A stretch of 33,968 nucleotides of DNA from an uncultured Mycoplasmatota bacterium (GTDB lineage: Bacteria > Bacillota_I > Bacilli_A > RF39 > UBA660), in the NCBI GenBank assembly GCA_945872435.1, contig CAMBYP010000008.1:1-33968 (forward strand), read 5' to 3'. Shown in pieces: positions 123 through 27,809 of the stretch. The notes under the pieces were generated by a model. It saw only the letters and a list, made by a program, of their open reading frames with translations, searched no databases and was not told the DNA's origin. The number at the start of each line of letters is the position of its first letter. Within the stretch, counting starts at the first letter, position 1. The translations under genes and the position numbers were made by a program.

Positions 123-1025
123 ATGAAAAAATATTTGATATTTTCATTTTTTATGTTTTTTTTCTTAATATTTCCTGTATCAGCTGAGGATTATTCTGGA
201 ATATGTTTTGTAGGAGATTCTAGAACTGTTGGTATGAAAATAGTAAATAGTAATCCAAGTAATCACTTTATTGCTCAAAGTAGTACTGGTTATGAATGGT
301 TTTCTACAACCGCTGCAAATGAATTAAGAAATTATTTACATAGTCATTCTTCTGTTGCTGTTGTTTATAATTTTGGAGTTAATGACTTAGGAGCTAATGG
401 TGAAGCCAATGTTTATAAATATATATCTTTATATAAAAAAATACAAAATGAATTTCCAAAAGTTGATTTCTATTATATGACGGTAAATCCTGTTCAAAAT
501 CACCCTTATATTTCAAATAGTGCAATTGAACACTTTAATTCAATTGTAGAAAATAATTTTCCTAAACAGATCATTAATACATATTCAAATATTAATTTTC
601 AATTTTCTGATAATGCCCACTATCAAGTAGCAACTTATCGTGAGATTATTTCATATACAGAAAATCAATTAAAAGACAAAAAAGGTTCAAATGTTAGAGA
701 AGTATACCCTAAACCAGTGATGACAGAACTTGATCCTGATGCCAAAGGATGTAAATTATTTGGCGATGAATTATTGGATTTATTGGCAGAAATTTATCAT
801 TGGATTCGTGGAATTTGTATAGCTGCTGTAGTAATTTTAGGAGTTACAGATTTTATTAAGGCTGTTGTAGTAAATAATGATGAAGCTGTAAAAAAAGCTG
901 GAGTTACATTTTTTAGAAAACTTATTTTACTAGCAATTTTAATTATTTTACCAGATTTAATTGATTTTATTTTACAACTTATTTTTGGACAAACTACAGC
1001 TGGTAATTGTTTGGAAAAATTTTAA
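123..1025 (+). CDS. Secreted SGNH/GDSL hydrolase fused to a C-terminal pilin-like two-helix membrane module
   Basis: A signal peptide spans residues 1-21 (hydrophobic core, then VSA before Glu22). The SGNH catalytic blocks are intact: GDSR with nucleophile Ser33, GVND at 85-88, and DNAH at 163-166 supplying Asp and His, so an extracytoplasmic esterase or acetylhydrolase is likely. After a linker at about 182-205 comes a separate module: Cys210, a membrane helix at about 228-250, a short Asp/Glu/Lys loop, a second helix at about 265-289, and Cys296 near the C-terminus. This layout resembles TrbC/VirB2-type pilin-like proteins that I recall from uncultured Firmicutes (family memory, not a search). 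The two cysteines would lie on the same outer face and could pair. The tail may simply anchor the enzyme. The start is set by GGTGAT at 114-119. The gene stands alone and ends in a bidirectional terminator. The substrate is unknown. Confidence 0.75.
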   Translation: MKKYLIFSFFMFFFLIFPVSAEDYSGICFVGDSRTVGMKIVNSNPSNHFIAQSSTGYEWFSTTAANELRNYLHSHSSVAVVYNFGVNDLGANGEANVYKYISLYKKIQNEFPKVDFYYMTVNPVQNHPYISNSAIEHFNSIVENNFPKQIINTYSNINFQFSDNAHYQVATYREIISYTENQLKDKKGSNVREVYPKPVMTELDPDAKGCKLFGDELLDLLAEIYHWIRGICIAAVVILGVTDFIKAVVVNNDEAVKKAGVTFFRKLILLAILIILPDLIDFILQLIFGQTTAGNCLEKF

Positions 1026-1056
1026 AACAGATATTATTTAAAATATCTGTTTTTTT
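1026..1056. terminator. Bidirectional intrinsic terminator between convergent genes
   Basis: A 9-bp perfect stem (1027-1035 with 1042-1050) has a 6-nt loop. T residues follow on the plus strand (1051-1056) and T-rich sequence follows on the minus strand. It begins immediately after the SGNH-pilin stop codon and directly follows the kinase stop on the other strand. Confidence 0.85.
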
Positions 1057-13866: not shown

Positions 13867-14394
13867 ATGAAACAATATGCTATAATTGGAATTATTTTAA
13901 CTTTATGTTTTCAAGCATTTACTTCTAATAACAATTTACTAATACCAGAAGAAGCAATTCGTTTGCGCGTACTTGCTAATTCTAATAGTAGTGAAGATAA
14001 AAAATTAAAAATGAAAGTCAGTGAAACAGTTCAAAAAAATTTATATCAACTTTTAAAAGATACAAAAGGAATAGAATCAGCTCGTAATAAAATAAACGAA
14101 AATTTGCCTTCTTTAAAACAACAAATATCTAATACTTTAAAATTAGAAAATAGTTCTATACCATTTCAATTAGACTATGGAATTCATTATTTTCCTCAAA
14201 AAGTATATAAAGGTGTAACTTATGAAGAGGGTGAATATGAATCACTACTAGTAACTTTAGGAAAAGGTGAAGGCGATAATTGGTGGTGTGTATTATTTCC
14301 ACCATTATGTATTATGGAAGCAGAAGAAACAGAAGTAAAGGAAGAAACAGAATATAAATTTTTTATTCAAGAACTGATTGAAAAATATTTATAA
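13867..14394 (+). CDS. spoIIR: Stage II sporulation protein R
   Basis: SpoIIR is made in the forespore and secreted into the intermembrane space, where it triggers SpoIIGA to process pro-sigma-E in the mother cell. The 175-aa protein has an N-terminal signal segment (about 1-20), the family motif IRLRVLANSNSSEDK near residues 34-48, and VTLGKGEGDNWWCVLFPPLC near 134-153, which is diagnostic. A charged Glu-rich tail follows. The ATG is preceded by GAAGGAG, partly within a hairpin. In B. subtilis spoIIR is sigma-F controlled; I could not pick out a convincing sigma-F promoter here, and one would have to lie upstream of the hairpin, within rlmH. Confidence 0.95.
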   Translation: MKQYAIIGIILTLCFQAFTSNNNLLIPEEAIRLRVLANSNSSEDKKLKMKVSETVQKNLYQLLKDTKGIESARNKINENLPSLKQQISNTLKLENSSIPFQLDYGIHYFPQKVYKGVTYEEGEYESLLVTLGKGEGDNWWCVLFPPLCIMEAEETEVKEETEYKFFIQELIEKYL

Positions 14395-14399
14395 TAAAA

Positions 14400-14436
14400 A
14401 TGCATAGGATGAATTAGGTGATTCTATGCATATTTT
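14400..14436 (+). promoter_or_regulatory. Hairpin enclosing the ytaF start codon
   Basis: ATGCATAG (14400-14407) pairs with CTATGCAT (14424-14431), then TATTTTTATT. The ytaF ATG (14426-14428) lies in the 3' arm and its AGGTG Shine-Dalgarno (14416-14420) in the loop. It resembles a weak spoIIR terminator that doubles as a structure over the ytaF start. Confidence 0.5.
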
Positions 14437-14956
14437 TATTGTTATAACCATCGCAATTAGTTTATCTATGGACGCTTTTTCATTATCATTATTATATGGA
14501 ACATTAAACTTAGAAAAAAAATTTATTTGGAAATTATCCTTAATTGTTAGTATATATCACTTTTTCATGCCAATTTTGGGACAATTATTTGGAAAAGTGA
14601 TTTTTTCTATTTTACCGATTAATCCTAACTTTATTGTGTCTATTATTTTATGTGTGATTGGAATACAAATGATTATTGAAAGTTTAAAAGAAGAAAAAGA
14701 AGTATCTGTTTTGAATTTATTAGAATTACTTGTTTTTGGTTTTGCTGTATCAATAGATAGTTTTTCGGTAGGAATTGGTTTATCTGCCATTTCTTCTCAT
14801 ATTATTTATTGCTCTAGTACTTTTGCACTATGTAGTGGTTTTTTTACTTATCTTGGCCTAAAATTAGGAAAAAAATTAAATACAATTTTTGGTTTATTAG
14901 CTCCAATTAGTGGTGGAATTGTTTTAATTATATTAGGAATTATATATGGACTATAA
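14426..14956 (+). CDS. ytaF: Sporulation membrane protein YtaF (MntP-like fold)
   Basis: A 176-aa polytopic protein with about six membrane helices. It belongs to the MntP/YtaF family, in which YtaF members occur in spore formers and are annotated as sporulation membrane proteins of unknown biochemical role. The first helix carries the family's SMDAFSLSLLYG (about residues 13-24). The second half repeats it as FAVSIDSFSVGIGLS (about 107-121), the internal pseudo-repeat expected for this fold, with an Asp in each copy. It follows spoIIR by 31 bases on the same strand, which fits a sporulation role. A manganese-exporter assignment is possible from fold alone but less likely in this context. Confidence 0.85.
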   Translation: MHIFIVITIAISLSMDAFSLSLLYGTLNLEKKFIWKLSLIVSIYHFFMPILGQLFGKVIFSILPINPNFIVSIILCVIGIQMIIESLKEEKEVSVLNLLELLVFGFAVSIDSFSVGIGLSAISSHIIYCSSTFALCSGFFTYLGLKLGKKLNTIFGLLAPISGGIVLIILGIIYGL

Positions 14957-14985
14957 TTGTTTTATAATTAAAAAATTGATATAAT
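14957..14985 (+). promoter_or_regulatory. Promoter of fba-murA
   Basis: TTGTTT (14957-14962), a 17-bp spacer ending in TGA, then TATAAT (14980-14985). GGGTGAT begins at 14991, at the predicted transcription start, so the leader is about 9-10 nt. Confidence 0.7.
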
Positions 14986-15000
14986 AATATGGGTGATAAT

Positions 15001-15852
15001 ATGTTAGAAAATACAAAAGTAATGTTAGAAACAGCAAAAAAAGAAGGATATGCTGTTCCACATTTCAATATTAATAATTTAGAATGGACAAGATTTATTT
15101 TAGAAGAATGTGAAAAAGAAAAAAGCCCGGTCATATTAGGAGTTAGTGAAGGTGCAAAAAAGTATATGATTGGTTTTCACACAGTAACTGAAATGGTAAA
15201 AGCTATGATTAAAGAATTAAACATTACTGTGCCAGTTGCTTTACATCTTGATCATGGAAGTAGTATCTTAGCATGTAAAGAAGCAATTGATGCAGGATTT
15301 ACATCTGTTATGATTGATGCTTCTAAATTTAGTTTGGAAGAAAATATAGCGATGACAAAAGAAGTAGTTCAATATGCACATGAAAGAAATGTAACAGTTG
15401 AAGCTGAAATAGGACATGTAGGTGGAGAAGAAGATGGCATTGCATCAGAACTTGCATATGCTAAAGTAGAGGATGCAGTATTATTGGCAAATTCAACAGG
15501 AATTGATACATTGGCACCTGCTTTAGGAAGTGTTCATGGAATTTATAAGGGTGAACCAAAATTAGATTTTGATAGAATGTTAAAAATAAAAGAATTAACA
15601 AATTTACCATTGGTACTTCATGGTGGTTCAGGAATTCCAGATGAATTAATTGAAAAAGGAGTAAATTGTGGAATTTGTAAATTAAATATTAATACTGATT
15701 TGCAAATTGTATGGGCAAAAGCAGTTAGAACATATTTAAATGAAAATGAAACAGTATATGATCCAAGAAAAATTATTAAAGCAGGTGAAAAAACTTTAAA
15801 AGAAAAAGTGAGTGAAAAAATACATTTGTTAAAAAGTAACAATCGTATATAA
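15001..15852 (+). CDS. fba: Class II fructose-bisphosphate aldolase
   Basis: This zinc aldolase interconverts fructose 1,6-bisphosphate with dihydroxyacetone phosphate and glyceraldehyde 3-phosphate in glycolysis and gluconeogenesis. The 283-aa protein has AVPHFNINN near the start and the H82-L-D84-H85 motif with the catalytic Asp and a zinc His. EIGHVGGEEDG and the phosphate-binding LHGGSGIP follow. A reading from 14989 would add four residues, but GGGTGAT at 14991-14997 is the Shine-Dalgarno and sets ATG 15001. Tagatose-bisphosphate aldolases (GatY/KbaY) are close relatives, but linkage to murA as in B. subtilis fbaA-murZ favours Fba. Confidence 0.93.
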   Translation: MLENTKVMLETAKKEGYAVPHFNINNLEWTRFILEECEKEKSPVILGVSEGAKKYMIGFHTVTEMVKAMIKELNITVPVALHLDHGSSILACKEAIDAGFTSVMIDASKFSLEENIAMTKEVVQYAHERNVTVEAEIGHVGGEEDGIASELAYAKVEDAVLLANSTGIDTLAPALGSVHGIYKGEPKLDFDRMLKIKELTNLPLVLHGGSGIPDELIEKGVNCGICKLNINTDLQIVWAKAVRTYLNENETVYDPRKIIKAGEKTLKEKVSEKIHLLKSNNRI

Positions 15853-15870
15853 AATATAGAGGTGTGGAAA

Positions 15871-17124
15871 ATGAAAAAACTAATTATTCATGGTGGTGAA
15901 TATTTATTAGGTACAATTCATATTAGTGGTGCTAAAAATAGTGCAGTTGCACTTGTTCCTGCATCATTGCTATCAGATGATGAAATCATAATTGATAATA
16001 TACCTAATATTACAGATATTGATGCATTGGATGAAATACTAACTTATTTAGGTGCTACAATTGAAAGAATTGACTCTAGAATGGTAATAAAATCAAAAAA
16101 TATTGAAAATAAAGAAATACCTGAGAATATTTCAAAAAAATTAAGAGCTTCTTATTATTTTATGGGTGCACTTTTAGGAAAATATAAAAAAGTAGAAATG
16201 TACTTTCCAGGAGGTTGTGCGATTGGAAAAAGACCAATTGATCAACATTTAAAAGCTTTTGAAGCCCTTGGTGCTAAAATTCAAATAGAGGGAAATAAAT
16301 ATAGAATAGAAGCACAAGAACTAATTGGTAATGATATTTATTTAGATTGCGCCAGTGTTGGTGCTACAATTAATGCGATGTTAGCAAGTGTAAAAGCAAT
16401 TGGAAAAACAAAAATTCACAATGCTGCAAAAGAACCAGAAATTGTGAATGTTGCTACACTTTTAAATAATATGGGTGCAGCAATCGAAGGAGCAGGAACA
16501 AGTGAAATTAGTATTCAAGGAGTAGAAAAATTAGGAAAATCGTATATTGAAGTAATTCCTGATAGAATAGAAGCAGGAACTTATATGATATTAGGAGCTT
16601 TGGTAGGAAATCCATTAACAATAGATAATATGATTCCAAATCATGTAGAATCATTAATATCAAAATTAAAAGAGATGGGTGTTCAATATGAATTAAATCA
16701 AAATAGCATTACAATATGGCATGCAAATGAAATAAGTCCTACACATGTTACAACTGCTGTTTATCCAGGATTTCCAACTGATTTACAGCAACCAGTTACA
16801 ACATTATTAGCATTTTCTAATGGTATTTCTAAAATTACTGAAACAATTTATGAAAATCGTTTTCAAAATGTTGAATATTTAAATAAAATGGGTGCTAATA
16901 TTAAAATAATAGATGATACACTTGAAATAAAAGGAGTTCCTTGTTTATATGGTAATACGGTAAAAGCAACTGATTTAAGAGCTGGAGCATGTTTATTTTT
17001 AGCAGGTTTAAAAGCTCATGGAACAACAGAAATTGAAAATGTTGAATATGTTTTAAGGGGTTATGAAAATATTATTCAAAAATTAAGCCAAGTTGGTGCT
17101 AAAATAGAACTTCAAGAAATATAG
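15871..17124 (+). CDS. murA: UDP-N-acetylglucosamine 1-carboxyvinyltransferase
   Basis: MurA transfers enolpyruvate from PEP to UDP-GlcNAc, the committed step of peptidoglycan precursor synthesis, and is the fosfomycin target. The 417-aa protein has the Lys-Asn pair in GAKNSAVALVPA, the active-site loop PGGCAIGKRP with Cys116 (so fosfomycin-binding chemistry is retained), PDRIEAGTYM and FPTDLQQP. AGAGGTG at 15858-15864 selects ATG 15871 over an upstream GTG at 15862. It follows fba by 18 bases. The order fba-murA-(two genes)-rpmE echoes B. subtilis fbaA-murZ(murAB)-rpmE, so this is more likely the MurZ-type paralogue; the murAA position beside spoIID in the minus-strand block holds no murA. 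Confidence 0.97.
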   Translation: MKKLIIHGGEYLLGTIHISGAKNSAVALVPASLLSDDEIIIDNIPNITDIDALDEILTYLGATIERIDSRMVIKSKNIENKEIPENISKKLRASYYFMGALLGKYKKVEMYFPGGCAIGKRPIDQHLKAFEALGAKIQIEGNKYRIEAQELIGNDIYLDCASVGATINAMLASVKAIGKTKIHNAAKEPEIVNVATLLNNMGAAIEGAGTSEISIQGVEKLGKSYIEVIPDRIEAGTYMILGALVGNPLTIDNMIPNHVESLISKLKEMGVQYELNQNSITIWHANEISPTHVTTAVYPGFPTDLQQPVTTLLAFSNGISKITETIYENRFQNVEYLNKMGANIKIIDDTLEIKGVPCLYGNTVKATDLRAGACLFLAGLKAHGTTEIENVEYVLRGYENIIQKLSQVGAKIELQEI

Positions 17125-17125
17125 T

Positions 17126-17155
17126 AAAAGTAGAGAAATCTACTTTTCTTTTTTT
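17126..17155 (+). terminator. Intrinsic terminator abutting the next gene's Shine-Dalgarno
   Basis: A 9-bp stem (17126-17134 with 17139-17147) has a GAAA tetraloop, then C and seven T residues (17149-17155). GGAGG of the next gene starts at 17156, leaving no room for a promoter between them. Confidence 0.88.
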
Positions 17156-17166
17156 GGAGGAATTTT

Positions 17167-17901
17167 ATGAAATTAAAAACTTTATTTGTACTGTCTTTTA
17201 CTCTTTTAATTGTATTTTTAATATATTTATCTCATATAGATAAAAAAGTGTATTATGTTGCATTAGGTGATTATCAAGCTTTAGGAGTTACAAATGAAGG
17301 AATTATTACATACGGTTATTCTGATTATCTGAAAGATAGACTAAAAACTAATAATAAATTAGAAACTTATTTGATCGGATATGCTAAAGATAATGCTCGT
17401 ATTACTGATGTCATTAATGACATAGAGCAAAATCGAGAATTAAAAATTAAATCAAGAAAGCAGACATTAAAAAATGCATTAATTAAAGCAGATTTGATTA
17501 CATTATCTATAGGCATGAATGACTTATTTTATAAAATAGGAGTGAATCATAATTTAGAACAATTAAATTATAATGAATTATATTATCATGTAGATGAAAT
17601 GATGGAAGATATGGAAAAATTATTTAAGTTATTACGAGAATATTGTAAAGAAGATATCATTATTACCAACTTTTATAATCCTACAAACCAAACCTATACG
17701 AAATTAGAAGATGTATTGACATATGCAAATAATCGTTTAGAAGAACTTTCTAATTATTATGATATAGAATACATTAAAGTGGATGATATTTTTAAAACTC
17801 GTAAGACTTCATTTGAAAACATTTATCCTACAAATAATGAATATAAAAAAATTAGTAAAAGAATAGAAACAAAAATGAATCAAATTTTGCTAAACAAATA
17901 A
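17167..17901 (+). CDS. Membrane-anchored SGNH-fold protein with lost catalytic Ser and His (probable pseudoenzyme)
   Basis: The 244-aa protein has an N-terminal hydrophobic anchor (about 5-22) and then an SGNH/GDSL-hydrolase fold. Block I reads YVALGDYQALG where active relatives read GDS, so the nucleophile position is Tyr36. Block III is intact (G116-M-N118-D119). Block V reads NIYPTNNEYKKIS near residues 218-230, where active members have H-P, so the catalytic His position is Tyr220. Both changes are in clean reading frame (GGT GAT TAT and ATT TAT CCT). The fold looks intact, with no frameshift, so a non-catalytic binding role outside the membrane is likely (inference). GGAGG at 17156-17160 sets the start. 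A strong terminator lies directly upstream. The SGNH protein at 123-1025 keeps its catalytic residues. Confidence 0.8.
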   Translation: MKLKTLFVLSFTLLIVFLIYLSHIDKKVYYVALGDYQALGVTNEGIITYGYSDYLKDRLKTNNKLETYLIGYAKDNARITDVINDIEQNRELKIKSRKQTLKNALIKADLITLSIGMNDLFYKIGVNHNLEQLNYNELYYHVDEMMEDMEKLFKLLREYCKEDIIITNFYNPTNQTYTKLEDVLTYANNRLEELSNYYDIEYIKVDDIFKTRKTSFENIYPTNNEYKKISKRIETKMNQILLNK

Positions 17902-17905
17902 GTTA

Positions 17906-17914
17906 TGCTATAAT
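17906..17914 (+). promoter_or_regulatory. Extended -10 promoter of the BI-1 family gene
   Basis: TGC (17906-17908) and TATAAT (17909-17914), followed by GAGGTGA at 17921-17927, at the predicted transcription start. Confidence 0.65.
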
Positions 17915-17932
17915 AACATTGAGGTGAATATG

Positions 17933-18577
17933 ATGAATCAAAAAAGTATGTTTGCAAAAATATTTTTATGGATGTTTATTGGATTATTTATTACATTTGG
18001 AACTGCTTATTATGTTTCAACACAAGAATTTTTAATGCTAAATGTACTAAATTTAAATTGGATTTGGTTTATTTTAGAAATTGGAATTGTTTTATTCCTT
18101 AGTGCAAGAATTACAAAGATGAGTTCTTTTACTGCAAAACTATCATTTGCATTATATAGTTTTATTACTGGTCTTACTTTGTCTTATATCTTTCTAGTCT
18201 TTTTATTACCATCTATACTTATCATTTTTCTAGCAGCAGCATTCATGTTTGGTATATTTGGTCTAATTGGATATTTTACTAAAGTAGATCTTTCAAAACT
18301 ATCAACAATATTACTTATGGCACTTTTAGGAATCATTATAGCAAGTGTGATTAATATTTTCCTTGGAAATGCAACAATAGACATGATAATATCAATTGTT
18401 GGTATTATTGTCTTTGTAATTTTTGTTGCATATGATATTCAAAAAGCAAAATTATTTGCAACTTTAGATACAATACCAGAAGATAATTTGGCTATTTATG
18501 GAGCATTAAATTTATATTTGGATTTTATTAATCTATTCTTACATTTACTATCTATGTTTGGAAATAGTAGAGACTAA
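17933..18577 (+). CDS. Bax inhibitor-1 (BI-1/YccA) family membrane protein
   Basis: A 214-aa protein with about seven membrane helices filling most of its length. Family hallmarks are near the C-terminus: VAYDIQKAK (the conserved Asp in YD-x-Q-K), then NLYLDFINLFLHLLSMFG ending in SRD. B. subtilis YetJ of this family is a pH-sensitive calcium leak channel, while E. coli YccA modulates FtsH; which role applies here cannot be read from sequence. In-frame GTG 17924 and ATG 17930 exist, but GAGGTG at 17921-17926 is best spaced for ATG 17933. It carries its own compact promoter and lies between the SGNH pseudoenzyme and rpmE. Confidence 0.85.
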   Translation: MNQKSMFAKIFLWMFIGLFITFGTAYYVSTQEFLMLNVLNLNWIWFILEIGIVLFLSARITKMSSFTAKLSFALYSFITGLTLSYIFLVFLLPSILIIFLAAAFMFGIFGLIGYFTKVDLSKLSTILLMALLGIIIASVINIFLGNATIDMIISIVGIIVFVIFVAYDIQKAKLFATLDTIPEDNLAIYGALNLYLDFINLFLHLLSMFGNSRD

Positions 18578-18587
18578 AAGAAAAGAC

Positions 18588-18616
18588 TTGCCAAAAAGAA
18601 TGAAATTTGGTATATT
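18588..18616 (+). promoter_or_regulatory. Promoter of rpmE
   Basis: TTGCCA (18588-18593), a 17-bp spacer, then TATATT (18611-18616). The predicted start near 18623 gives a leader of about 52 nt, much longer than for neighbouring genes. Confidence 0.7.
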
Positions 18617-18633
18617 ATATAGGTATTTAATAT

Positions 18634-18655
18634 CTATGACATGAATTTGTCATGG
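18634..18655 (+). promoter_or_regulatory. Leader hairpin upstream of rpmE (candidate r-protein leader)
   Basis: ATGACA (18636-18641) pairs with TGTCAT (18648-18653), extendable by a G-U and a C-G pair, with the loop TGAATT. It ends just before GGAAGGAGAG (18658-18667 region). Firmicutes L31 leader motifs that may bind the protein have been described. Whether this matches that motif needs a covariance-model search. Confidence 0.4.
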
Positions 18656-18674
18656 CGGAAGGAGAGATTACAAT

Positions 18675-18890
18675 ATGAAAAAGAATATTCATCCAGAATA
18701 CATGGATGCTACAGTTACTTGCGCATGTGGAAATACTTTTCAAGTAAGAAGTAATCGTAGTGAAATTCATGTTGAAGTTTGTAGTCAATGTCATCCAGCT
18801 TATACTGGTAAAAATTCTCAATCAGGAAAAAGAGCAGGAAATATTGAAAAATTCAACAAGAAATATAATCGTACAACAAAAGAAGCATAA
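18675..18890 (+). CDS. rpmE: Ribosomal protein bL31, zinc-binding type
   Basis: A 71-aa large-subunit protein at the intersubunit bridge. All four zinc cysteines are present: Cys16-x-Cys18 and Cys36-x-x-Cys39, so this is the C+ form that relies on zinc and can be displaced by a C- paralogue in zinc-poor conditions. [15 protein letters not shown] and the CHPAYTGK segment are characteristic. A strong GGAAGGAGAG Shine-Dalgarno lies upstream. The last codons (KEA) form the 5' arm of the terminator and the TAA is in its loop. Confidence 0.97.
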
Positions 18891-18902
18891 GCTTCTTTTT
18901 TG
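18878..18902 (+). terminator. rpmE terminator with the stop codon in its loop
   Basis: A 9-bp stem (18878-18886 with 18891-18899) has the loop ATAA holding the TAA (18888-18890), followed by T residues. Confidence 0.88.
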
Positions 18903-18918
18903 TTACTAATCAATTAAA

Positions 18919-18941
18919 AAAATCGCTTTAAAAGCGATTTT
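18919..18941. terminator. Terminator of mbl (symmetrical, could work both ways)
   Basis: A 10-bp perfect stem (18919-18928 with 18932-18941) has a 3-nt loop. A/T runs on both sides give a T tract on either strand. It backs onto the rpmE terminator at a convergent junction. Confidence 0.85.
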
Positions 18942-19930
18942 TATTTATCTATCAAATGTAAATTATCTAATAAAATACCAGTACCTTCAGCCACACAAGT
19001 TAAAGGACTTTCAGCAATAAATACAGGAACTTTTAATTCATGTGATAATAGTTGATCAAATCCCTTAATTAATGCTCCTCCACCAGTAATAACAATACCT
19101 TTATCAATAATATCAGCAGATAATTCTGGTGGTGTTTGTTCTAATACATTTTTAGCTTGATGAACTAATAGATATACACTTTCACGTAATGCTTCTTCTA
19201 CTTCATCAGAAGAAAGTGTAATTGTATGTGGAAGTCCTGTTACTAGATCACGTCCACGAACTTCCATTTTTTCTACAGTATCGCCTGGATATACAGATCC
19301 TATTGTCATTTTAATTTCTTCAGCAGTACGATCCCCTACTAATAATTTATATTTATCTTTGATATATTTAATAATATCAGTATCAAATGTATTTCCAGCA
19401 ACTTTAATAGAACAACTTGTTACAATTCCTCCAAGTGAAAGAATAGCAATATCAGTAGTTCCACCACCAATATCAATTACCATGTTTCCACTTGGTTTAG
19501 AAATATCCATACCAGCTCCAATTGCAGCAACTTTAGGTTCTTCTTCCAAGAATACTTTTTTAGCACCAGTTCTTTCTGCTGCTTCTTTAATAGCATTTTT
19601 TTCTACTTGAGTAATATTAGATGGACAACAAATCAAAATACGAGGTCTTGATAAAAAGCTTTTTCCATTTACTTTTCTAATATAATGATTTAACATGATT
19701 TCTGTTAAATTAAAATCAGCGATTACACCATCTTTCATTGGTCGAATAGCTTGAACTCTTCCAGGTGTTCTACCTAGCATTTCACGAGCTTCTGTACCAA
19801 CTGCAAGTGGTTTTTTTGTTTCAGAATCGATGGCAACGACACTAGGCTCATTTAACACGATTCCTTGACCTTTAATGTATATTAAAACATTTGCTGTACC
19901 CAAATCTATTCCAATGTCTTTAGTAAACAT
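18941..19930 (-). CDS. mbl: MreB-like actin homologue Mbl
   Basis: Mbl forms membrane-associated filaments that guide the elongation machinery for sidewall peptidoglycan. The 329-aa protein shows the actin-fold phosphate loops DIGIDLGTANVL near the start, DIGGGTTDIA in the middle, and GIVITGGGALIKG near the C-terminus. LICCPSNITQVE and EEEPKVAAIGAG are also family-typical. Assignment to Mbl rather than MreB rests on its position directly after spoIIID, as in B. subtilis. AAGGAGGG (complement of 19937-19944) sits six bases before the ATG at 19928-19930, so a start two codons upstream at 19936, directly against the Shine-Dalgarno, is rejected. Confidence 0.95.
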   Translation of the reverse strand: MFTKDIGIDLGTANVLIYIKGQGIVLNEPSVVAIDSETKKPLAVGTEAREMLGRTPGRVQAIRPMKDGVIADFNLTEIMLNHYIRKVNGKSFLSRPRILICCPSNITQVEKNAIKEAAERTGAKKVFLEEEPKVAAIGAGMDISKPSGNMVIDIGGGTTDIAILSLGGIVTSCSIKVAGNTFDTDIIKYIKDKYKLLVGDRTAEEIKMTIGSVYPGDTVEKMEVRGRDLVTGLPHTITLSSDEVEEALRESVYLLVHQAKNVLEQTPPELSADIIDKGIVITGGGALIKGFDQLLSHELKVPVFIAESPLTCVAEGTGILLDNLHLIDK

Positions 19931-19958
19931 TACCATCCCTCCTTGATTAACATTATCT

Positions 19959-19967
19959 ATTATATCA
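19959..19967 (-). promoter_or_regulatory. Extended -10 promoter of mbl
   Basis: On the minus strand, TGA then TATAAT (complement of 19959-19964), upstream of AAGGAGGG. This lets mbl be expressed vegetatively, independently of spoIIID. Confidence 0.6.
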
Positions 19968-19993
19968 CAAACTCTCTTGAAATAATAGGAAAA

Positions 19994-20242
19994 TTAGAGT
20001 TTCTGAAACTTTTTTTTTGTAGATTCTCCACCACGAATATGACGTATACAATTATGAAAATTTAAAATTTTTTTAATTTCTTGAAAAAGAATGAAATCTA
20101 TTTTAGGTAGTCTTTCATGTAAGTCTTTATGAACAGTACTTTTTGATACTCCAAAATGATTAGCTATCTCTCTAACAGTATACCCTGTTTTTAGCATATA
20201 ATAAGCTTCATTCATAATTCTTTCATAAATTTTGTGATTCAT
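19994..20242 (-). CDS. spoIIID: Sporulation transcriptional regulator SpoIIID
   Basis: SpoIIID is a small DNA-binding protein that reshapes the sigma-E regulon in the mother cell during sporulation. The 82-aa protein matches the family throughout. The helix-turn-helix is EIANHFGVSKSTVHKDLHER (about residues 25-44), followed by the conserved IRHIRGGE and a basic tail that makes extra DNA contacts. AAGGGGG upstream supports the ATG. An AT-rich TATAAT-like box at complement 20260-20265 could be a promoter, but a sigma-E promoter could not be confirmed. It lies between spoIIQ and mbl, as in B. subtilis. Confidence 0.96.
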   Translation of the reverse strand: MNHKIYERIMNEAYYMLKTGYTVREIANHFGVSKSTVHKDLHERLPKIDFILFQEIKKILNFHNCIRHIRGGESTKKKFQKL

Positions 20243-20286
20243 AATTTCCCCCTTAATTTATTATATAAATCAGTAAATAATTTATA

Positions 20287-20308
20287 CAAAAAAAGAGCTA
20301 ATGCTCTT
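20287..20308 (-). terminator. Terminator of spoIIQ
   Basis: On the minus strand, a 6-bp AAGAGC/GCTCTT stem (20303-20308 with 20293-20298) has a 4-nt loop and is followed by a T run (complement of 20288-20294). It overlaps the stop codon at 20307-20309. Confidence 0.75.
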
Positions 20309-20939
20309 AATTTTCTTCTATTTTTTTATCAAAATAGTCATTAGGATTTACAGTTTGTCCATTGTCGATTAATTCAAAATGTAAATGATTACCTAGTTCT
20401 TTTTCTACATTTGATGTTCCACTTTTACCGATTTGTTGTCCTTGTTTTACAGTATCACCTTTTTTTACAGAAACATCACTTAAACTTTGATAAACACTTG
20501 TTAAATGATTATCATGTTTTATTTCTACTATTTTACCAAGTAATTTATCTTCTTTTACGTCATTAACTGTTCCATCTAATATAGAAGTAACATCAAAATT
20601 ATCTTTTCCACCATAACTAATACCACTATTCTGTAAATATGTAGATTCATATAAAATTAATGAATTTTCCTGTTTGGTACTATCAGCTTTGTAATCATAA
20701 TAATCTTTTAAAACTGTAATTTCAGGATCAGTATATGGTCTAGTAATTACAATGTCTGTGTTTACAACTGGCTCTGAATTTTCAAAAATAGTTTCAGAAA
20801 CATAACCATAGTGATCATCATCTTGAAAGTTTTCTTGATTAATCAGGCTTTCTATCATGTAAGCACATCCTAAAACTAGAACAATTGCACTCATATAAAT
20901 AAATGGAATGACAGACTTTTTCAATCTTCTTTGTCTCAT
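20307..20939 (-). CDS. spoIIQ: SpoIIQ-like forespore membrane protein with a degenerate LytM (M23) domain
   Basis: SpoIIQ spans the forespore membrane and binds SpoIIIAH across the intermembrane space to form the engulfment zipper and feeding-tube channel. The 210-aa protein has a basic N-terminus, a membrane helix (about 11-30), a linker and a LytM domain (about 95-205). The HxxxD zinc pair is replaced by Asn104 and Ser108, while the final His185-Leu-His187 remains, so peptidase activity is unlikely. Loss of the first ligand also occurs in B. subtilis SpoIIQ; C. difficile keeps the full set. TVYQSL, SVYQSL-type and GKSG motifs of this family are recognisable (here SVYQSLSDVSVKKGD). GAGGTGAT before ATG 20939 sets the start, although the frame is open to 20987. 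It is downstream of spoIID, as in B. subtilis. Confidence 0.9.
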   Translation of the reverse strand: MRQRRLKKSVIPFIYMSAIVLVLGCAYMIESLINQENFQDDDHYGYVSETIFENSEPVVNTDIVITRPYTDPEITVLKDYYDYKADSTKQENSLILYESTYLQNSGISYGGKDNFDVTSILDGTVNDVKEDKLLGKIVEIKHDNHLTSVYQSLSDVSVKKGDTVKQGQQIGKSGTSNVEKELGNHLHFELIDNGQTVNPNDYFDKKIEEN

Positions 20940-20979
20940 ACTATCACCTCTATTTAAAGTGTGAACGAAAATTGAAAAA

Positions 20980-21897
20980 TTATTCAATTTTTTTTATGTC
21001 TACGCCCTGATAATAATATTTTAATATTTCTTGATAATTAGAACCATTTTTAGCCATACCATAAGCACCATATTGACTCATGCCAACACCGTGACCGAAT
21101 CCTTTTGTATGTACAATAATTTGATTATCATTTTTTGTAATTTCAAAAAAACTAGAACGTAGTCCTAAAGCTTTTGTTACATCAGAAGCTAAAAATAATT
21201 TACCATTAATTTGTATTTCTTTTACTCTTCCAGTCGATGTTGTTTTTGTAACTTGGATTGAAAAGTTAGAATTAGAGTCTAGGTTTAGTTTTTCATAAAA
21301 TTCTTGGATTGTAAATGTTTTAGAATCTTCAAAAACTGGCGAAATATCTTTTTCCCAATCTGATTTAACACTTCTTAAATAAGGCAAGTTTTCTTGAAAT
21401 ACTTCTTCACAATTTTCAGTATATCCAGTACTTGTTGAAAAGAAGAAAGCATTAACAATTTGTCCTTGGTAGGTTAAATATTCTCCTTTTGTTTCTAATA
21501 CTGCTTTTTGAATTAAATTTATTTTTTCATTATATTCTGTTTTCCAACGTTCTTTTAATTCACCATTACTATAATAAACTTGATTTGTAACAGTATCAAC
21601 AACGTCATATTCTTGATTTTTTGCATATTCTATTTTTCGTAATACATAAGTTCTTGCTGCTACTGCTTGTGCTTTTAATGCTTCCATTGGAAATGTAGTT
21701 GGCATTTCACCGGATAAAACGCCCATGACATAATTTTCTAATGGTATTTTTTCAATCACATTTTTTTTCTCTCTTTTTACTCTAACGATTTGATTTTTTT
21801 CAAAATGAGTTTCTTTTTCTTCTACTTGATTGAAAATTTGTACAATGACAAATGGAAGTATGATTAAAATAATTGTAATCAATATGACTTTTTTCAT
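20980..21897 (-). CDS. spoIID: Stage II sporulation protein D (lytic transglycosylase)
   Basis: SpoIID cleaves glycan strands during septal thinning and engulfment, working with SpoIIM and SpoIIP. The 305-aa protein has an N-terminal anchor (about 4-22). The catalytic region has Glu64 in LSGEMP, LKAQAVAARTYVL, and a C-terminal GFGHGVGMSQYGAYGMA signature. In-frame GTG 21945 lies inside an upstream terminator, so ATG 21897 is the likely start. It lacks a clear Shine-Dalgarno. A TATAAT box only six bases upstream (complement 21904-21909) would give a leaderless mRNA if it is used. Confidence 0.95.
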   Translation of the reverse strand: MKKVILITIILIILPFVIVQIFNQVEEKETHFEKNQIVRVKREKKNVIEKIPLENYVMGVLSGEMPTTFPMEALKAQAVAARTYVLRKIEYAKNQEYDVVDTVTNQVYYSNGELKERWKTEYNEKINLIQKAVLETKGEYLTYQGQIVNAFFFSTSTGYTENCEEVFQENLPYLRSVKSDWEKDISPVFEDSKTFTIQEFYEKLNLDSNSNFSIQVTKTTSTGRVKEIQINGKLFLASDVTKALGLRSSFFEITKNDNQIIVHTKGFGHGVGMSQYGAYGMAKNGSNYQEILKYYYQGVDIKKIE

Positions 21898-21932
21898 ATT
21901 ATTATTATATCCATAAAGATAGAAAAAATTTG

Positions 21933-21957
21933 TCAAAAAAAACACTAAAAAGTGTTT
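21933..21957 (-). terminator. Terminator separating rpiB/DUF1146 from spoIID
   Basis: On the minus strand, a 7-bp stem (complement of 21951-21957 with 21940-21946) has a 4-nt loop and is followed by a T run (complement of 21935-21942). It isolates spoIID from upstream transcription. Confidence 0.82.
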
Positions 21958-23900: not shown

Positions 23901-23985
23901 CACAATTTTACAAGTATGTGAAAAACTGACAAACATCTAGTCAAGCAATTGTCAATTAAAGACGACTTTGTTTCTTCTACTTTTG

Positions 23986-24014
23986 TTGACTACAAATATA
24001 AAACAAGATATACT
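23986..24014 (+). promoter_or_regulatory. Sigma-A promoter of the FemX cluster
   Basis: TTGACT (23986-23991), a 17-bp spacer, then TATACT (24009-24014), one of the clearest two-box promoters in the window. It probably serves all three FemX genes. Confidence 0.75.
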
Positions 24015-24045
24015 AATAATAATGAAATTTAGAAAGGATGATAAA

Positions 24046-25338
24046 ATGGAATTTGTTCTCTTAACAAACGAAGAATTTACAGCTTTTGAAAAAAATCATC
24101 CATATGGAAGTTTTTATCAAACAATTGGTTGGGGAGAATTAAAAAAAAGAAATGGTTGGCAATATCATTTAGTTGGATTAAAAGATGAAGGAAATGTGGT
24201 TGCAGGAGCAATGTTACTTGAAAAAAAGTTACCACTGGGGCTTTCATTTATATATTCACCACGTGGTTTTTTAATCGATTATTTGGATTATGACCTATTA
24301 GCTAAATTTACTTCTGAAATAAAGAAATTTGGAAAAAAACATCATGCAATATTTGTTAAAATTGATCCATATGTACAATTACAAGAAAGAGATTTAGATG
24401 GCAATATTGTTGAAAATGGTTTTAATAATGAAAAAGCAATTTTTAATTTGAAAAAACTAGGTTATCATCATAATGGTTATACAATGAATATGGAAGACTT
24501 ACAACCACGTTTTGCTTTCGCCCTTAATTTAGAAGGAAAAAGTATAGATGATATTATGAAAGATATGGAGTCAAAAACACGACAATTAATTCATAAAAAT
24601 GAGAAGACAGGAATTATAACACGTGAAATAAAGATAGATGAAATTGATAAATTTAAAAGTATTATGCAACATACTGCAGATCGTAGAGGATTTATTGATA
24701 GACCTCTTAGTTATTATAAAAATATGTTAACAGATTTAAAAGACGGTGCCAAAATCATTATTGCTGAAATTAATTTGGAAGATTATACAAATCGTTTAAA
24801 GAAGGAAATTGATTCTTCTAAAAAAATAATAGAAGAAAAAGAAGCTGCTTTAAATGATCCTAGTAAAAAAATAAATCCGGATAAAACAAGAAAAAAAATA
24901 GAACAAGAACAGGCCAATATAAAACGTATTAGCAAAAAATTAAGTGAAGGAGAAAAATTATTACAAGAGCATGGAAAAATGTTAACACTTGGAGGAATTA
25001 TTTTTATGCTTCACAGCAATGAAATTTTGTCATTATTTGGTGGCTCTTATGAAGAATATAAAGACTTTTTAAGTCCTTATTCTACTTATTTTCATATGAT
25101 TAAATATGGAGTAGAACAAGGATATCATAAATATAATTTTTATGGAATTAGTGGGGATTTTAAAAATAAGAAAAACGAGTTATACGGATTATATGACTTA
25201 AAACGTGGTTTTGGTGGTCATGTAGAAGAATATATAGGAGAATTTGATCTTATTATTAAACCAATTATGAATCATGTTTATCATATTGCTTTTTCACTGT
25301 ATGGTAAGTTAAAAAAGATTAGAAGAAAGAAGGGATAA
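24046..25338 (+). CDS. FemAB-family aminoacyltransferase, first of three (FemX1)
   Basis: FemAB enzymes add amino acids from aminoacyl-tRNA to the peptidoglycan stem peptide, building the interpeptide bridge at the membrane's inner face. The 430-aa protein has two GNAT-like halves. A long charged helical hairpin at about 245-309 is typical of FemA/FemX, where it is thought to contact tRNA. Family-typical pieces are IYSPRGFLIDY, KIDPYVQ and a late YNFYGISGDF plus LKRGFGGHVEEYIGEFDL. The frame is open upstream to 23968, but AGAAAGG at 24031-24037 selects ATG 24046. The N-terminus MEFVLLTNEEF aligns with FemX2, supporting both starts. It lacks a membrane anchor; the basic C-terminus may touch lipid. 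Confidence 0.9.
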   Translation: MEFVLLTNEEFTAFEKNHPYGSFYQTIGWGELKKRNGWQYHLVGLKDEGNVVAGAMLLEKKLPLGLSFIYSPRGFLIDYLDYDLLAKFTSEIKKFGKKHHAIFVKIDPYVQLQERDLDGNIVENGFNNEKAIFNLKKLGYHHNGYTMNMEDLQPRFAFALNLEGKSIDDIMKDMESKTRQLIHKNEKTGIITREIKIDEIDKFKSIMQHTADRRGFIDRPLSYYKNMLTDLKDGAKIIIAEINLEDYTNRLKKEIDSSKKIIEEKEAALNDPSKKINPDKTRKKIEQEQANIKRISKKLSEGEKLLQEHGKMLTLGGIIFMLHSNEILSLFGGSYEEYKDFLSPYSTYFHMIKYGVEQGYHKYNFYGISGDFKNKKNELYGLYDLKRGFGGHVEEYIGEFDLIIKPIMNHVYHIAFSLYGKLKKIRRKKG

Positions 25339-25339
25339 T

Positions 25340-26581
25340 GTGCAATTTTGTGAAATATCTGAAGAGGAATTTCGTGAATTTTTAAATGCTAGTACATTAC
25401 AAACATTTTTACAAACACCTGAAATTGGTAAATTACGAAAAAAAGGTGGTTGGAATGTAGATTATGTTGGAGTAAAACAAGATAAAAAATTAGTGGCTGC
25501 AACTATGTTAGTAAGCAAAAAAAATTTTATGAATTCTTATGAATTTTATACTTCACGTGGACCATTAATTGATTTTCATAATAAAGATTTAGTTACATTT
25601 TTCTTTCGTCAATTAAAAAAATATGTTCAAAAGAAAAAAGGATATATATTAAGAATTGATCCTTATTTAATATACCATGAGCGAGATATTGATGGTAATG
25701 TTGTCGAAGATGGAGTAAATAATGAAAGTGTTGTTCAATTATTAAAACGATTAGGTTTTAAAAGAAAAGAATCACCAGAACAAGTACAGTATATGTTTTC
25801 TATTGATTTGGGAAAACCAAATGAAGAAATTTTTCAATCTTTTCGTTCTAATGTAAGAAATTATATTAGAAAAACAGAAAAAATGGGGATTGTTGTAAAA
25901 GAACTTACAAAAGGAGAATTACCATCATTAAAAAAAATTACTGAGGAAACAGGTAAACGAAAAGGTTTTGTCGATAAATCACTTACTTACTATGAAGATA
26001 TGTATGATTTATTTCATCCACGTGGTGAAATTAGATATTTATTAGCTACAATTTATTTAGATGATTATTTAGATAAATTAAGGAAAGAACTAAAGGAATA
26101 TGAAACACGATTAGAAAATACAGAAGATGTTCATTCTAAAAAGGGACTTAGAAAATCTCTTTCAATTAATATAGAAAATACAAAAAAGAGAATTGAAGAA
26201 ACAGAAAATTTAATGAAAGAACATGGTAGTCAATTGGATTTATCAGCAGCAATGTTTATGATGACTGGACATGAAGTAATTTACTTATTTAGTGGAAATT
26301 ATGATGAATATATGAAATTTAATGCCCAATACGCAATTCAATGGAATATGATCAAATATGCAAATGAACATGGATTTGATAAATATAATTTTTATGGAAT
26401 TAGTGGCAATTTTGATGAAACAGATTCTGAGTATGGTGTATATGAATTTAAAAGAGGCTTTTCTGGATATGTTGAAGAATTAATTGGAGAATTCCAATTA
26501 CCAGTAAATCAAAAAATTTATACAACATTTAATGTAATTAATAATACAAAACGTTTAATTAAAAGATGCATAGGGAGGTAA
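25340..26581 (+). CDS. FemAB-family aminoacyltransferase, second of three (FemX2)
   Basis: The 413-aa paralogue starts at GTG 25340, two bases after the FemX1 stop. AAGGGA just upstream and the alignment of MQFCEISEEEF with FemX1 MEFVLLTNEEF support this start. It shares TSRGPLIDF, RIDPYL, a helical arm at about 240-294 and YNFYGISGNF with FemX1. The halves are clearly related but well diverged at protein level, so duplication is old. Sequential Fem enzymes usually add successive bridge residues, so FemX1 and FemX2 may add different positions or amino acids (inference). Confidence 0.9.
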   Translation: MQFCEISEEEFREFLNASTLQTFLQTPEIGKLRKKGGWNVDYVGVKQDKKLVAATMLVSKKNFMNSYEFYTSRGPLIDFHNKDLVTFFFRQLKKYVQKKKGYILRIDPYLIYHERDIDGNVVEDGVNNESVVQLLKRLGFKRKESPEQVQYMFSIDLGKPNEEIFQSFRSNVRNYIRKTEKMGIVVKELTKGELPSLKKITEETGKRKGFVDKSLTYYEDMYDLFHPRGEIRYLLATIYLDDYLDKLRKELKEYETRLENTEDVHSKKGLRKSLSINIENTKKRIEETENLMKEHGSQLDLSAAMFMMTGHEVIYLFSGNYDEYMKFNAQYAIQWNMIKYANEHGFDKYNFYGISGNFDETDSEYGVYEFKRGFSGYVEELIGEFQLPVNQKIYTTFNVINNTKRLIKRCIGR

Positions 26582-26585
26582 CAAA

Positions 26586-27809
26586 ATGAAGTATGAATTC
26601 AAGACTAATGTCAAAAAAACAGAATATGATGAATTTGTAAAAAAAGCTTCTACCCTTTCTTTTATGCAGGAATATAATTGGGCTTTTGTAAAAGAAGAAT
26701 GGAATCATTTTCATTGTGGTTTATATAAAGATAAAAAATTAGTAGCAACTGCCCTTGTTTTAAAAAGAAAATTACCATTAGGAATTTCTTTGATGTATAT
26801 TCCAAGAGGAATTTTAGTAGATTATAAAAATAAAGAAATATTGGAAATTTTCACAAAAAAATTACGAGAGTTAGCAAAACAAGAACACGCCTATGTTGTA
26901 AAAATTGATCCAAATTTTTGCTATAGAGAATATTCAATAAAAGAAATAGAAAAACAAGAAAAAGTTGATATTCCCCTATATTATTCAAATGATTATGAAC
27001 TAAAACATAAAAATATTTTATCTTGTGGTTATCATTTTAAAGGATATACGAAATCAATTCAAGATACATTACAACCAAGATACCACATGTATATCCCATT
27101 AATAAATAAAGATCATAATTTTTTAACAGAGTCTGAAATAAAAACAAGTTTTAAAAAACGTATTCGAAGTTACATAGGAAATTATCATGAAAAAAGAGGT
27201 GTAACTTATTTTCATACAAGTGATCCAAAATATTTAGATATGTTTATGGAAGTTATCACACAAACAGAAAAAAGACAAAATATTCGTCTTAGAAATAAGT
27301 CATATTTTAAAAAAATGATGGAACAATATAAAGGAGAAGCATATTTGTTTTTTGGAATGTTAAATTTAGAAACATATTTACAGTTTTTGAAGAATAATAA
27401 CGGCAAAGAAGAAGAAATAAAAGAAGTAGAAAATTTACAAACAGATGGGCAAAAAGAAATTGTGTTATCTGCTGCATTTGTCATTATTCCACAAAATGAA
27501 GGACTTCGTACTAGTGAATATTTATATGCTGGTAATCATTTATTGTTTACAAAATTAAATGTTTCTGTGGGATTAGTTTATGAAATTTGTAAATATTCTT
27601 TAGAACAAGGTTGTAGTTACTGTAACCTAGGAGGAATTAATGGAACTTTTGATGATCATTTAACTCCATTTAAATCAAGATTTAATGCTATTGTATTTGA
27701 ATTTGCTGGAGAATATGATTTAATTGTTCAACCAATTCGATATCATATTTATGAATTTTGTATGCCTATATTAAAGAAGATATATCGTTTCCTTCGTAGA
27801 AAAAAATAA
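26586..27809 (+). CDS. FemAB-family aminoacyltransferase, third of three, with a short arm (FemX3)
   Basis: The 407-aa paralogue follows FemX2 by four bases with a strong GGGAGG Shine-Dalgarno. It keeps YIPRGILVDY, KIDPNF, the central QPRYHMYIPL strand and a late YCNLGGINGTF with FEFAGEYDL. The central helical arm is cut to about 30 residues (about 260-288) against about 55-65 in its neighbours, and an insertion lies near residues 115-140 after KIDPNF. It is the most divergent of the three and may recognise a different acceptor or tRNA. Its stop is followed by the promoter of a WecA-type gene. Confidence 0.88.
   Translation: MKYEFKTNVKKTEYDEFVKKASTLSFMQEYNWAFVKEEWNHFHCGLYKDKKLVATALVLKRKLPLGISLMYIPRGILVDYKNKEILEIFTKKLRELAKQEHAYVVKIDPNFCYREYSIKEIEKQEKVDIPLYYSNDYELKHKNILSCGYHFKGYTKSIQDTLQPRYHMYIPLINKDHNFLTESEIKTSFKKRIRSYIGNYHEKRGVTYFHTSDPKYLDMFMEVITQTEKRQNIRLRNKSYFKKMMEQYKGEAYLFFGMLNLETYLQFLKNNNGKEEEIKEVENLQTDGQKEIVLSAAFVIIPQNEGLRTSEYLYAGNHLLFTKLNVSVGLVYEICKYSLEQGCSYCNLGGINGTFDDHLTPFKSRFNAIVFEFAGEYDLIVQPIRYHIYEFCMPILKKIYRFLRRKK

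Follow-up and report, generated by a model that had tools for sequence, protein, structure and literature searches.

The protein encoded by the window gene (P0001, 300 aa) is probably an enzyme-bearing pilin of a chromosomal T4SS, which would bring an esterase to the part of the wall that surrounds the T4SS; we give this reading a probability of about 0.6. The window is the whole analyzed stretch of 33,968 nucleotides (contig CAMBYP010000008.1, here C8) from an uncultured Mycoplasmatota bacterium. Based on sequence comparisons it is close to certain that the tail of P0001 is a homologue of T4SS pilins. Free-standing pilins of the same family are encoded within a T4SS and Tad gene cluster elsewhere in the genome, and related genomes join the same tail to a variety of other enzymes.

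The window gene and its enzyme half

The layout of the gene is given in Table 1. The enzyme half was compared with 31 aligned relatives that share 28-66% identity with the window protein. P0001 contains the SGNH blocks, namely GDS with Ser33, block-II Gly56, GxND with Gly85 and Asn87, Asp163 and His166, and all of these residues are invariant or nearly so among the relatives. Ser33, Gly85, Asn87, Asp88, Asp163 and His166 are invariant in the alignment of 31 sequences, so that the intact Ser33/Asp163/His166 set reported in the preliminary description is borne out. In an AlphaFold2 model computed from this alignment, residues 21-188 adopt an SGNH fold, for the most part at pLDDT >90; a disordered linker follows, and then two long helices (residues 215-250 and 253-288). 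The Pfam profile Lipase_GDSL_2 scored 20.9 bits on P0001, under its cut-off of 32.9, and the relative L056:17226-18239 clears PF00657 with 28.3 bits (cut-off 23.6). Foldseek matched the enzyme half to PatB, sialate O-acetylesterases and TesA (E 2e-6 to 5e-4). P0001 resembles these proteins in predicted fold and in the Ser-Asp-His set, but shares only about 12-19% identity with them, the match to PatB being at fold level with 12%. Outside the genus, the proteins most similar in sequence come from Lachnospiraceae and other Clostridia. A second SGNH-like protein without a hairpin is encoded in the window at 17167-17901 (Lipase_GDSL_2, 37.6 bits); judged from its sequence it may be inactive, as GDS reads GDY and the Asp-x-x-His block looks lost.

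Table 1. Coordinates of the window gene, its predicted parts and the adjoining repeat.
Feature	Position	Strand	Basis
Whole gene: Sec signal peptide, SGNH hydrolase, linker, VirB2-like pilin hairpin	123..1025	+	translation, ORF list
Predicted signal peptide, residues 1-21	123..185	+	inferred from sequence; N-terminal helix 2-16 in model
SGNH hydrolase domain, residues 22-188	186..686	+	Pfam below cut-off; AF2; Foldseek
Catalytic Ser33	219..221	+	invariant, 31 relatives
Catalytic Asp163	609..611	+	invariant, 31 relatives
Catalytic His166	618..620	+	invariant, 31 relatives
Flexible linker, residues 189-209	687..749	+	pLDDT <50 over most
VirB2-like T4SS pilin hairpin, residues 210-296	750..1010	+	pilin-only HMM; own-genome pilins; modelled helices
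Cys210, first of conserved pair	750..752	+	near-invariant
Cys296, second of conserved pair	1008..1010	+	invariant column
Inverted repeat with T run, terminator-like, between two convergent genes	1022..1056	.	sequence reading only

Relationship of the tail to T4SS pilins

The tail has four further relatives in its own genome. A second fusion protein, encoded on contig C4 and cysteine-rich in its N-terminal part, has a tail 57% identical to that of P0001, and the others are three consecutive free-standing pilin ORFs on contig C11 (109, 116 and 198 residues); comparison of the P0001 tail with the own-genome pilins gave E values of 4e-8 to 2e-6. A profile built from 36 free-standing short pilins scores P0001 with 47.9 bits (E 6.5e-14). 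Since these pilins were gathered by an iterative search that started from the P0001 tail, the evidence lies in the bit-score gap and not in the E value alone: every family ORF collected earlier scores 35.9 bits or more, against 12.1 bits for the best ORF outside the family, a gap of 24 bits. Among 38 diverse hairpins, 28 match the Pfam family PF18895 (T4SS_pilin) at E<=1 (best 5.7e-8), and the next-best family for the same hairpins is 7tm_1 (12 of 38, best 3.6e-4). The curated cut-off of PF18895 is cleared in 15 of 60 genomes. A fusion from the same genus (G002:C4), whose tail is 52% identical to that of P0001, clears it with 26.8 bits (cut-off 26.6). P0001 itself has no match to PF18895 at E<=10 in the Pfam search; thus its link to T4SS_pilin goes via its relatives. 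TrbC (PF04956) did not match the P0001 tail and is outside the 25 most frequent families for the 38 hairpins.

The resemblance to pilins would be fortuitous if the tail were an ordinary helical hairpin anchor. In line with this, P0001 alone lacks a direct Pfam pilin match, Foldseek with the isolated tail (a low-confidence model, pLDDT 68) gave no match better than E 3.5, and a PDB profile search with the hairpin alignment returned rhodopsin-like chance matches only. However, the score of P0001 with the pilin-only profile, the gap that separates the weakest family member from the best other ORF, and the passing of the curated T4SS_pilin cut-off in 15 genomes, the same-genus fusion included, led us to reject a chance hairpin, to which we attach only a very small probability. 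The likeness to VirB2-type pilins proposed in the preliminary description is therefore upheld by the own-genome pilins, the pilin-only profile and the PF18895 matches among relatives. On the strength of sequence homology traced by way of intermediates, the tail is classed here as a relative of T4SS pilins rather than as an established pilus subunit.

The cysteine-bracketed helical hairpin with a charged turn that had been described for P0001 is borne out by Cys210, Cys296 and the modelled helices, and the turn is rich in Lys and Arg across the family. Both bracketing cysteines are present in 114 of 119 non-redundant hairpins, and they form the sole invariant or near-invariant columns in the 38-member alignment, which has a mean column identity of 29%. 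The turn between the helices contains on average 5.4 Lys/Arg and 3.1 Asp/Glu (119 non-redundant hairpins). Such a turn is what a cytoplasmic loop with both cysteines outside would show, and we infer a topology in which both ends lie on the same, outer side of the membrane and the turn is cytoplasmic. Cys210 and Cys296 would then probably form a disulfide. The cluster on contig C11 also encodes, at its edge, a TraF-like double-thioredoxin protein (L007:17772-18578, PF13728, 44.1 bits, cut-off 23), which is consistent with disulfide handling in this system.

The hairpin profile has matches in 36 of the 37 genomes of the bacterial family, and only two marginal matches were obtained in 23 genomes outside it. 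VirB4 was detected in 31 of the 37 family genomes; five genomes have hairpins and no detected VirB4, and the sole family genome without hairpins (G032) is also without VirB4. The named relatives are from uncultured Mycoplasmatota and Bacilli MAGs.

The T4SS and Tad cluster and the enzymes fused to the hairpin

Contig C11 of the same genome carries a chromosomal T4SS and Tad cluster with the three free-standing pilins at its middle. It encodes VirD4, a split VirB4, VirB3/PrgI-like and VirB6-like proteins, a SpoIID+CHAP protein, and Tad-type CpaF and CpaB; further ORFs without Pfam match were named TadB, TadC, CpaE and TadE-like by position and sequence. The window gene, located on contig C8, is unlinked to this cluster. 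The earlier statement that no conjugation genes are nearby holds for the window alone, in which neither such genes nor a conjugative element were seen, because genome-wide a full T4SS is present on contig C11. Many genera share one gene order: CpaB, CpaF, TadB, TadC, two pseudopilin-like ORFs, a CpaE-like ORF, the pilins and VirB6, followed by PrgI, VirB4-N, VirB4-C, in some cases SpoIID-CHAP, and VirD4. The split of VirB4 (L006:11372-13697) gives an N part of 183 aa and a C part of 594 aa, which are separate ORFs in other genera too. DUF5411 of Pfam (L007:11622-12038, 169.9 bits) is a conserved member of the cluster, and this membership supplies a context for that family.

Pilins precede VirB6 at 22 loci. 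The one closest to VirB6 is extended N-terminally by at least 84 residues at 18 of these loci, and by at least 250 residues at 12. These extended pilins share the plan of P0001, i.e. a signal peptide, an ectodomain and a C-terminal hairpin. In VirB systems the pilus is initiated by the tip protein VirB5, which docks on VirB6 (PMC12857230). By this analogy, a tip-like role of the extended pilins is a reasonable guess.

No match to the Relaxase family PF03432 was found in the genome and no relaxase was recognised among the C11 ORFs; one Mob_Pre relaxase over cut-off (G000:C34:7285-7953) lies on a contig other than that of the T4SS. On these grounds, which cover the Relaxase and Mob_Pre families, conjugation was rejected as the role of the machine. 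According to a 2025 review, VirB2 pilins do not occur in Gram-positive T4SSs apart from Patescibacteria (PMC12857230), and monoderm T4SSs are likewise described as lacking VirB2, with the same exception, in the review and in PMC12102498. The pilin array of a Saccharibacterium is essential (PMC10633639). The arrays of Patescibacteria (PMC12102498; PMC10633639) resemble the present system in being monoderm T4SSs with several divergent VirB2-like pilins that match the same PF18895 model, in VirB4, VirB6 and PrgI/VirB3, in the absence of a recognised relaxase on the T4SS contig and in the small genome. In contrast to Patescibacteria, the present system belongs to Bacilli/Mycoplasmatota, is joined to a Tad-type cluster, has VirD4 and has enzymes fused to its hairpins; enzyme fusions to pilin hairpins find no mention in the passages compared from the two papers. 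The present system looks like a second monoderm case with VirB2, in Bacilli and with Tad genes in the same cluster. A widespread Bacilli/Mycoplasmatota lineage here has VirB2-like pilins in a conserved T4SS and Tad cluster, contrary to the Patescibacteria-only exception of the review.

Fusions of the hairpin are not restricted to SGNH hydrolases. In relatives it is joined to NlpC/P60 (four proteins, 47-94 bits), M23, phage lysozyme, NAGPA (phosphodiester glycosidase) and SGNH domains, and below cut-off to YkuD and a C39-like peptidase. Both parts of ORF L175 are over their cut-offs, NlpC/P60 with 94.4 bits and T4SS_pilin with 29.2 bits. The fusions occur in either domain order, with joining usually at the N-terminus. 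The suggestion that one tail serves many different domains is confirmed by this variety of fused enzymes in related genomes, and a function of the hairpin as a general carrier of enzymes is well supported. Most of the fused domain families act on bacterial walls, which is the main reason to suppose that the SGNH partner acts there too. Neighbouring pairs of hairpin-SGNH and hairpin-C39-like genes were observed in two genomes (L144:4554-6577 and L056:17226-19346), and in L165 the partner of the hairpin-SGNH gene is a hairpin-NAGPA gene. No account of pilin-enzyme fusions turned up in the literature searched on RF39 and T4SS, on VirB2 fusions in Gram-positives and on PF18895, which covered few subscription journals. 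The cluster and the set of fusions together give direct access to the function of such chromosomal T4SSs, and might serve as a natural scaffold on which to display enzymes.

The SGNH domain appears to have been recruited repeatedly. Among 80 named SGNH loci, the hairpin fusions all come from MAGs with the titles Bacilli, Bacillales, Mycoplasmatota, Tenericutes or Firmicutes; those titled Lachnospiraceae or other Clostridia have none. In the SGNH tree the clade of the window protein, with its C-terminal hairpin, is positioned near Lachnospiraceae enzymes, and the N-terminal fusions are found in two other places. Trees in which all fusions were held together were rejected by the AU test (p-AU 0.0038), as were those that grouped just the N-terminal fusions (0.0088). 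One ancestral SGNH-hairpin fusion with later permutation is thus rejected, and at least two, probably three, independent fusions are supported. The SGNH-hairpin form with the domain order of P0001 is known from only three genomes, all of one genus.

Proposed role at the wall and gene neighbourhood

In the proposed mechanism, the signal peptide would export the N-terminal SGNH esterase, and the C-terminal hairpin would enter the membrane in the topology given above. The T4SS and Tad cluster of the cell would provide ordinary pilins of the same family, which the fusion would join as a minor or accessory subunit, or close to which it would at any rate lie in the membrane. Assembly of P0001 with the T4SS is likely; it may also be incorporated into a filament, although homology to pilins does not prove polymerisation. 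We guess, with moderate support, that its substrate is an O-acyl group on peptidoglycan or another wall glycan, and removal of this group would let the upstream-encoded GH25 muramidase and other hydrolases cut. Points against this reading of P0001 are that SGNH domains as a class act on many substrates, that the gene is unlinked to the T4SS cluster and that its SGNH-hairpin form is confined to one genus so far. A comparable arrangement is known from the VirB1-type wall hydrolases PrgK, TraG and Orf14, which are membrane-anchored extracellular wall enzymes serving a T4SS (PMC12857230), as is proposed here; the T4SS operon of the present genome also has its SpoIID+CHAP protein. In P0001, however, the anchor is a pilin hairpin and the enzyme an SGNH esterase instead of a transglycosylase or peptidase: no lytic transglycosylase, CHAP or M23 domain as in VirB1-like wall hydrolases was found by Pfam or Foldseek.

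A rather unlikely alternative is that the hairpin, although descended from T4SS pilins, has become a general device that anchors secreted enzymes at the surface and is no longer involved in the T4SS. Many fusions, including P0001, are encoded away from the T4SS cluster, the five genomes with hairpins and no detected VirB4 would be accounted for, and the variety of domains, joined in both orders, fits such an anchor. A mere anchor would leave unexplained, however, why pilins with ectodomains occupy a fixed spot before VirB6 in most T4SS loci, why the family is restricted to a T4SS-bearing lineage and missing from most outside relatives, and why the cysteine pair and the loop are retained as in pilins. 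We consider it improbable that the fused enzymes are T4SS cargo or weapons, carried by the hairpin to a neighbouring cell in killing or an epibiotic life style. No immunity gene was recognised beside the window gene, and genes for peptidoglycan synthesis are present in the genome (MraY over cut-off and six transpeptidase matches), which makes work on its own wall the simpler reading. This weighs against the capability of most fused domains to attack bacterial walls, the lack of a recognised relaxase on the T4SS contig and the parallel with the essential VirB2-like pilin arrays of epibiotic Patescibacteria (PMC10633639; PMC12102498). Under the preferred reading of P0001 as an enzyme-bearing pilin, the many wall enzymes on the same tail in relatives suggest that a DNA-transfer-type machine was turned into an enzyme holder. 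More tentatively, and with the odds against it, the T4SS of wall-bearing Bacilli might be an enzyme-display organelle rather than a DNA pump, with pili or membrane collars of VirB2-like subunits that bear interchangeable wall enzymes.

The gene neighbourhood fits an action on the wall. O-acetylated peptidoglycan is resistant to muramidases, and an esterase next to a muramidase therefore makes sense. Two same-genus genomes have an ortholog of the window gene in the corresponding position next to uvrB, and a GH25 muramidase gene directly upstream on the same strand, ~50-60 bases away, was found in two genomes of the genus. In the present genome, the GH25 ortholog stops 77 bases short of the end of contig C59, and the window gene begins 123 bases into C8, as would be expected if a contig gap had split the same layout. 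On the minus strand, a convergent protein-kinase-like ORF (window:1055-2023), without Pfam match at E<=0.001, adjoins the SGNH-pilin gene in G003 and G004. Elsewhere in the window, ORFs resembling SpoIIR, M23/SpoIIQ, SpoIID and MreB/Mbl (13867-21945) represent putative engulfment-type genes in a genome of 1.07 Mb, and three apparent FemABX-like ORFs, each with a helical insert, are arranged in tandem at 23968-27809.
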